The translations under genes and the position numbers were made by a program. This document shows positions 50,414-52,019 of a stretch of 64,000 nucleotides of DNA, one piece after another. The stretch covers positions 62,001 through 126,000 of the forward strand of contig JAISJQ010000002.1 of the NCBI GenBank assembly GCA_031261445.1, given 5' to 3'. Each line of letters begins with the position of its first letter. Position 1 is the first letter of the stretch. The DNA comes from Oscillospiraceae bacterium (GTDB lineage Bacteria; Bacillota; Clostridia; Oscillospirales; Acutalibacteraceae). Below the pieces are notes generated by a model that saw only the letters and a list, made by a program, of their open reading frames with translations, had not been told where the DNA came from and ran no database searches.

Positions 50414-51247
50414 ATGCCCCAAACCATCGCTGCGCTGGGCAGCTTTGACGGATTGCACATGGGTCACTGGGCAGTTCTGCAGGACGCTCAGCTGCCCGCC
50501 ACCGTGTGTTTGCTCTTTGACGGGCTGGACAAGTCCGCGCAACTGCTGACCACCGAAAAGCGCGATGCGCTCTTGCGCGAAGCGGGCATCGAGCCCGTGG
50601 TTTTTGCGTTTGACGAGCTACAACATCTCACGCCAGCGCAGTATGTGGACGAGGTTTTGTGCGCACAGCTACACGTGGATGGCGTGGTCTGCGGCTATAA
50701 CTACCACTTTGGGGCAGGCGCGGCGGGCGATGCCGACACCCTGCGCACGCTCTGCGCCGCGCGGGGCATTGCCTGCCGCGTTGTGCCGCCCGTTTTGCAG
50801 GCAGGCATGCCCGTGAGCGCCACGCGCATCCGCGAAGCCTTGCGCTTGGGGGATGTGCCCACAGCCAATGCCCTGCTTGGTCGCCCGTTTGGGTATGACT
50901 TCCCCGTGGCGCACGGCGACGCGCGTGGGCGCACGCTGGGCTACCCCACCGCCAACCAATTCTTCCCAGAGGGTTTTCTGATTCCACGGCGGGGGGTGTA
51001 CGCCAGCCGCGTGACCTTGGCGGGGACGGTCTATCCCGCCATGACCAACATCGGTTTGCGCCCCACCTATGCCAGCCCCGTGCCCCTGAGCGAGACGCAT
51101 CTTTTCGGCTTTTCGGGTGACTTGTACGGGCAAAAGCTCCCGGTGGAGCTGCTGGCGTTCATCCGTGACGAGCGTGCGTTTGCCAGCGCGGAGGAGCTCA
51201 CGAAGCAGCTGACGAGCGACGCAAAGCAGTGTAAAGCGCGGTTTTAG
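50414..51247 (+). CDS. ribF: bifunctional riboflavin kinase/FAD synthetase
   Basis: LGSFDGLHMGHWAVL, VCGYNYHFGAGAAGD, GRTLGYPTANQF, RRGVYASRV, NIGLRPT. Confidence 0.94.
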   Translation: MPQTIAALGSFDGLHMGHWAVLQDAQLPATVCLLFDGLDKSAQLLTTEKRDALLREAGIEPVVFAFDELQHLTPAQYVDEVLCAQLHVDGVVCGYNYHFGAGAAGDADTLRTLCAARGIACRVVPPVLQAGMPVSATRIREALRLGDVPTANALLGRPFGYDFPVAHGDARGRTLGYPTANQFFPEGFLIPRRGVYASRVTLAGTVYPAMTNIGLRPTYASPVPLSETHLFGFSGDLYGQKLPVELLAFIRDERAFASAEELTKQLTSDAKQCKARF

Positions 51248-51299: not shown

Positions 51300-51328
51300 T
51301 TGCAATCTTGCGCGGAATGTGCTAGACT
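51300..51328 (+). promoter_or_regulatory. promoter TTGCAA-N17-TAGACT with extended -10 (TGC)
   Basis: TTGCAA 51300-51305, TAGACT 51323-51328. Confidence 0.7.
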
Positions 51329-51378
51329 AATGCTGTAGCGAACTTCAACCCGCATCCCATTGCAAAGGAGGCACACAC

Positions 51379-51516
51379 ATGGAAGCTTTCACACAAGCAT
51401 TTGCCGATTTCTTCAGCTGGCTGTCCGGTTTCACGTTTGAAATCGTTCTGACCGCGATTGAAGACTGGTTGTTCGAGATCAGCGGCGGTGATTTCCACTG
51501 GGGCTCTACGTTCTAG
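51379..51516 (+). CDS. novel 45-aa aromatic-rich small protein (MEAFTQAFADFFSWLSGFTFEIVLTAIEDWLFEISGGDFHWGSTF)
   Basis: ATG preceded by AAAGGAGG; promoter upstream, hairpin terminator downstream; not in the supplied ORF track. Confidence 0.7.
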   Translation: MEAFTQAFADFFSWLSGFTFEIVLTAIEDWLFEISGGDFHWGSTF

Positions 51517-51532
51517 GGCACTTCTACACACC

Positions 51533-51570
51533 AAAAAAACACCCTTGCCTCGCGGCGGGGGTGTTTTTTA
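51533..51570 (+). terminator. rho-independent terminator
   Basis: aaaaaacacccttgcctcgcggcgggggtgtttttta. Confidence 0.8.
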
Positions 51571-51750
51571 TACTATTTCGCAATAAAAATTGTTGCCTAT
51601 CGCGACAGGCAAGGGTCGCCCCTATGGAAGGATTCTTAATACGGAATCGTATGAATTGTGATAACAGACAAACGGGGCGATGTGGACATCGCCCCCTACG
51701 GAAGGATTTCAAAAACGGAATCGTATGAATTTTTTGTCCGATTGGCAAAG

Positions 51751-51786
51751 GAAAAGCCTTGAAACCCGGTGGTTTCAAGGCTTTGG
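51751..51786 (-). terminator. hairpin downstream of tRNA-Leu
   Basis: Minus strand AAAGCCTTGAAACCACCGGGTTTCAAGGCTTTTCC. Confidence 0.75.
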
Positions 51787-51866
51787 TGCGGTGGACGGGA
51801 CTTGAACCCGTACCCTTGCGGACACGCCCCTCAAACGTGCGCGTATGCCAGTTCCGCCACCACCGC
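51787..51866 (-). tRNA. tRNA-Leu (anticodon GAG)
   Basis: Minus strand GCGGTGGTGGCGGAACTGGCATACGCGCACGTTTGAGGGGCGTGTCCGCAAGGGTACGGGTTCAAGTCCCGTCCACCGCA; acceptor and T arms pair; anticodon loop TTGAGGG. Confidence 0.93.
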
Positions 51867-52019
51867 ATCGCCTGCGTTCGCCCGAGGGTCTCTTGCGGGG
51901 ACGAACACACAGTATTATAGCATCTCTCGCTCGTTTTGTCAAGTCTCGCTACGCCCCATTTGCTTTTTCGCCCCATTACTGCTATAATATAGTGCTAGAA
52001 AAAGCGAGGAGACAGTTCG

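Follow-up and report, generated by a model that had tools for sequence, protein, structure and literature searches.

A genus-restricted small gene for an acidic, aromatic-rich protein between ribF and tRNA-Leu in an Oscillospiraceae bacterium

SpoVM exemplifies a very short amphipathic protein that acts at a membrane surface in a non-enzymatic manner. Leaderless class IId bacteriocins such as lacticin Q and the weissellicins are helical and comprise 40–50 residues, and the beta-type phenol-soluble modulins (PSMs) of staphylococci are amphipathic peptides of similar size. Beyond such characterized examples, the Global Microbial smORF Catalogue (PMC11364881) shows that more than half of the small-protein families on record are specific to a single genus. 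Here, we describe a 45-codon gene from an Oscillospiraceae bacterium, located in a 64,000-nucleotide stretch of contig JAISJQ010000002.1 (hereafter, the window). Like the genus-specific families of that catalogue, it is a short open reading frame (ORF) confined to one genus and devoid of a recognized domain; in the present case, however, the analysis directly addressed the promoter, the ribosome site and selection at the level of codons. As over half of catalogued families are genus-specific, the novelty is modest: the family is well supported, but one of very many of its kind.

The analysed stretch spans positions 51300–51570 of the window on the + strand, between ribF (PF01687/PF06574; 3′ end at 51247) and tRNA-Leu(GAG) (51784–51866, − strand). 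The promoter, ribosome site, ORF and terminator that a preliminary description had placed here are all present at their coordinates:

51300..51328, + strand: promoter, TTGCAA-N17-TAGACT with extended −10 TGTG, read from the sequence (TTGCAA at 51300–51305, TAGACT at 51323–51328, and a 17-nt spacer with TGTGC at its end)
51365..51372, + strand: Shine-Dalgarno sequence AAAGGAGG, 6 nt upstream of the ATG
51379..51516, + strand: 45-codon ORF plus stop, MEAFTQAFADFFSWLSGFTFEIVLTAIEDWLFEISGGDFHWGSTF, with ATG at 51379 and TAG at 51514–51516
51534..51569, + strand: intrinsic terminator, a 16-pair hairpin followed by a T-rich tail

Is this a gene? Among 98 related genomes searched, clear homologues (E 1e-12 to 1e-9) occur in three of four congeneric genomes examined, all three metagenome-assembled: G001 (JAISSW010000016.1, locus L065; about 60–62% identity to the window protein), G002 (JAIRYC010000087.1, L066; 63%) and G004 (WRKY01000068.1, L067; about 52–53%). 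Every carrier has a single copy. In pairwise comparisons of the four sequences, 23–32 changes fall on third codon positions against 7–16 on first and second positions (for example, 14/11/23 and 12/13/26 at positions 1/2/3), and the ratio of nonsynonymous to synonymous substitution rates (dN/dS) is 0.30, 0.13 and 0.18 for the three pairs with unsaturated dS. Because of this third-position excess and these ratios, 51379–51516 is, by its pattern of substitution, a real protein-coding gene under purifying selection. None of 2000 column shuffles of the alignment (mean 226, sd 65, max 446) reached its summed BLOSUM score, 849, and the sense frame is free of stops in all four members and has the highest similarity among the six frames, the best antisense frame carrying stops in two members. 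The preliminary description had named an unconserved frame with substitutions ignoring codon position as grounds for abandoning the gene; we find the opposite, and the recurrence of frame, promoter and ribosome site in three congeners bears out its proposal of a monocistronic small-protein gene. It had further stressed that the gene was missed by the ORF track: the ORF is indeed absent from that list, which signifies merely that it is short. Thus, a short ORF spotted by eye in raw sequence can prove a genuine conserved gene.

The small protein seems to have diverged at an ordinary pace. Its identities to the window copy (63% in G002 and 52% in G004) parallel those of RibF (64% and 55%). Of the pairs seen, G001 and G002 are the most similar in the small protein (70%) as well as in FtsW (74%). 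Together, this points to vertical inheritance at about the rate of RibF. A profile built from the four rows retrieved no convincing member outside the genus from ~394 family, 395 order and 387 class genomes (samples partly overlapping), and a pattern scan of 85,462 GTDB species returned nothing beyond the three homologues. Among the best of the weak profile matches, those in G029, G055, G462, G632 and G738 lay antisense to or within other ORFs, covered only part of the profile or contained stops, and were taken as chance, as was one in G852 (21 positions inside a 214-aa ORF, whose sequence was not read). Viral contigs, phages and plasmids held no relatives either, offering no ground for regarding this as a phage or mobile-element protein. 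By these searches, the family appears restricted to one genus. The contig WRKY01000068.1 belongs to isolate Th196P3bin135, in whose name P3 presumably denotes a hindgut compartment. The sample code occurs in termite-gut metagenome papers that also name Termes hospes (PMC7024585 and others), so that at least this carrier would come from a termite hindgut. From the shared genus and the style of naming, the other two homologue genomes would be of gut origin as well.

The expression signals are conserved along with the frame. All four family genes are preceded by the same promoter sequence and spacing, CTTGCAAT-NNT-N8-TGTGNTAKANT, and by an AAGGAGG ribosome site. Allowing up to 2 mismatches, the promoter pattern occurs at 63 sites in the window's genome, compared to 0 for a reversed control, and these include positions upstream of tRNA genes and of ORFs resembling, by eye, recA, gyrA and rpsF. 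Given this recurrence, also before housekeeping-like ORFs, the promoter is an ordinary one for this genus, which suggests that the gene is expressed constitutively; special regulation through a shared motif was rejected on the same basis. By eye, terminator-like hairpins follow the ORF at all four loci. In a terminator scan, the window and L065 were the only loci with a matching hairpin scored on the coding (+) strand; in L066, a strong stem was scored on the − strand, and the inverted repeat of L067, which runs into T5, went unscored.

Neighbouring genes mostly differ between loci, and the small gene is hence without an operon partner: in place of ribF and tRNA-Leu, it is flanked by topA and ftsW in L065, by a metallophosphoesterase gene and ftsW in L066, and by an oxidoreductase-like ORF (by eye) and an FGGY sugar kinase gene in L067. 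Immediately 3′ of the gene, window positions 51580–51745 hold a copy of a hairpin-containing interspersed repeat that is species-specific (47 matches in the window's genome, 0 in the four congeners). A second copy in the same genome lies in opposite orientation ~80 bp 3′ of ftsW, the very position at which two congeners hold the small gene. Since oppositely oriented copies at the gene and at ftsW are what a former shared junction would leave behind, this suggests that a repeat-mediated rearrangement may have parted the gene from ftsW in the window's species.

The encoded proteins are 43–47 residues in length. Their Lys/Arg counts are 0, 0, 0 and 1, their net charge ranges from −7 to −3, and Phe, Trp and Tyr make up 25–28% of residues; with five neighbouring proteins as the reference for composition, a stretch of 45 residues would lack Lys/Arg with probability 0.005 and include at least 12 aromatics with probability 0.0007. 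AlphaFold2 predicts helices at residues 2–14 and 20–34 of the window protein (mean predicted local distance difference test score, pLDDT, 82) and at 2–15 and 20–35 of the most divergent member (pLDDT 76), with an SG[FW]T turn between the two. When each helix is shuffled, most of the shuffled versions have a lower helical moment than the actual one (P 0.007–0.034 for helix 1 and 0.001–0.07 for helix 2), and both helices are predicted to be amphipathic in most members. The invariant residues (M1, F4, A7, A9, F11, S13, S16, G17, T19, F20, E21, W30, L31, G36, F39 and G42) are spread along the full length, a pattern to be anticipated for a protein that folds or makes contacts and not for a leader-core precursor, and make this four-sequence family a small, defined set fit for biochemical testing. 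Neither Pfam nor NCBIfam matched any of the four members, PHROGs and PADLOC yielded nothing at a meaningful E-value (PHROG 36198 at E 0.32 and, for one member, PADLOC CARF_m4 at E 0.013 were not accepted), and PDB sequence matches, including a GH1 beta-primeverosidase (E 0.028), were taken as chance.

What might such a protein do? The reading we favour, tentatively as a whole, is that of an autonomous, vertically inherited, genus-restricted gene for a helical-hairpin contact protein. With a housekeeping (sigma-A type) promoter that serves this gene alone and a strong ribosome site, it would yield a nearly Lys/Arg-free, aromatic-rich hairpin in which an amphipathic helix 1 leads into the conserved S-G-[FW]-T-F-E turn and helix start, followed by helix 2, likewise amphipathic, and by a tail with the conserved motif G-x-x-F-x-x-G. 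The protein would most likely be retained in the cell and act through contact: its aromatic faces would pack either against a membrane protein, at the surface of the cytoplasmic membrane, or against another copy of the small protein, which might thus be a small subunit with an accessory or regulatory function. This resembles SpoVM in outline, although the small protein has an ordinary vegetative promoter, two predicted helices and only a putative location, and we know of no sequence relation between the two.

Several observations weigh against this view. The interfacial transfer energies (Wimley-White) are weak, from −2.4 to +1.8 kcal/mol per helix (in the window protein, about −2.2 for helix 1 and +1.8 for helix 2), and proteins with a net charge between −3 and −7 would not readily bind anionic lipids by themselves. 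Since both features make unaided lipid binding doubtful, we prefer a membrane-protein partner. The earlier suggestion of a membrane- or interface-active peptide may hold, in that it agrees with the pair of amphipathic, aromatic helices, but the interfacial energies of the window protein are weak. Synteny, moreover, points to no partner, as even the ftsW common to G001 and G002 is convergent. The predicted template modelling score is only 0.41–0.56 and neither alignment goes beyond four rows; the two-helix model therefore lends support, short of proof. Finally, no homologue was found in the assembly of the fourth congener, G003; because ftsW is undetectable there too, that assembly may be incomplete at the locus and the absence an assembly gap. 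A bolder version, in which this acidic aromatic hairpin with its GxxFxxG tail represents a new fold-level family, a dedicated accessory of a membrane machine that arose in one gut genus, strikes us as quite unlikely, the ftsW neighbourhood in two genomes being a hint at a link to cell-wall synthesis.

The small protein might instead be exported, in the manner of beta-type PSMs or leaderless bacteriocins, as a surfactant or antibacterial peptide that leaves the cell without a signal peptide through an ATP-binding cassette (ABC) exporter and acts on surfaces or on the membranes of neighbours. With ~45 residues, predicted helices at either terminus, no obvious signal peptide and a strong stand-alone expression unit, it fits the description of beta-type PSMs (PMC5442197), and the gut is a crowded niche. 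It has, however, no sequence-family match, and neither an exporter nor an immunity or peptide-modification gene adjoins it in the four contexts (an unlinked exporter was not sought). Bacteriocins usually show turnover, in contrast to the purifying selection and vertical inheritance seen here. The leaderless bacteriocins compared here (PMC6072434) are cationic (+4 to +6), with typically 3–4 helices in a saposin-like arrangement, and the circular ones compared are likewise net positive, whereas the small protein is acidic with two predicted helices. On balance, we consider export a main rival, though an unlikely one.

A cytosolic role away from the membrane is likewise improbable, but would account for the weak interfacial energies. 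Two amphipathic helices with a tight turn could pair into a homodimeric four-helix bundle of Rop-like architecture, with an acidic surface that binds basic proteins. Foldseek nevertheless found no fold match in the PDB (a weak test for a 45-residue query), and the aromatics exceed what a small bundle needs.

We regard a toxin of a type I toxin-antitoxin system, or another small toxic membrane peptide, as very unlikely. While a short hydrophobic intergenic ORF with strong signals is what such a toxin would look like, a consensus scan of the four loci found no antisense promoter-like site inside or just 3′ of the ORF, the gene is single-copy and vertically inherited, no RNA structure has covariation support, and the acidic residues of the helices speak against a simple transmembrane toxin. 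That the ~240-nt transcript predicted between the strong promoter and terminator is a structured or dual-function RNA with an incidental ORF is hardly credible, as substitutions follow a protein-coding pattern, covariation support is almost nil (−0.38 kcal/mol, consensus RNA structure) and the locus has no Rfam match. A precursor of a ribosomally synthesized and post-translationally modified peptide was rejected on account of full-length conservation without a leader-core pattern and the lack of a modification enzyme among the neighbours (ribF, glycosyltransferase, topA, ftsW, phosphoesterase, sugar kinase and the by-eye oxidoreductase-like ORF).

Some minor features of these genomes deserve mention. 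Upstream of tRNA-Leu(GAG), the window has a perfect TTGACA-N17-TATAAT promoter with extended −10 (51914–51942, − strand). In G003, a 46-aa ORF, MLDQIIFAINDFLGKAITEPSDNPISAIFEGIQQTIAYLLAQLGIV, directly follows a tRNA-Arg-like gene (L064:1675–1815); considered as the missing counterpart of the small gene, it was dismissed because it has no convincing homologues in 97 other relatives and is thus, by this search, probably not a conserved gene. Directly after the tRNA-Arg-like gene of G004 lies a 90-bp tandem repeat (L060:1622–1962; 3.8 copies, 90% matches). In G002, a candidate cobalamin riboswitch, a look-alike recognized by eye (GGGAAGTCGGTGCAATTCCGACGCAGCCCCCGC, L042:1530–1680), is located 3′ of a promoter of the same type as that of the small gene.
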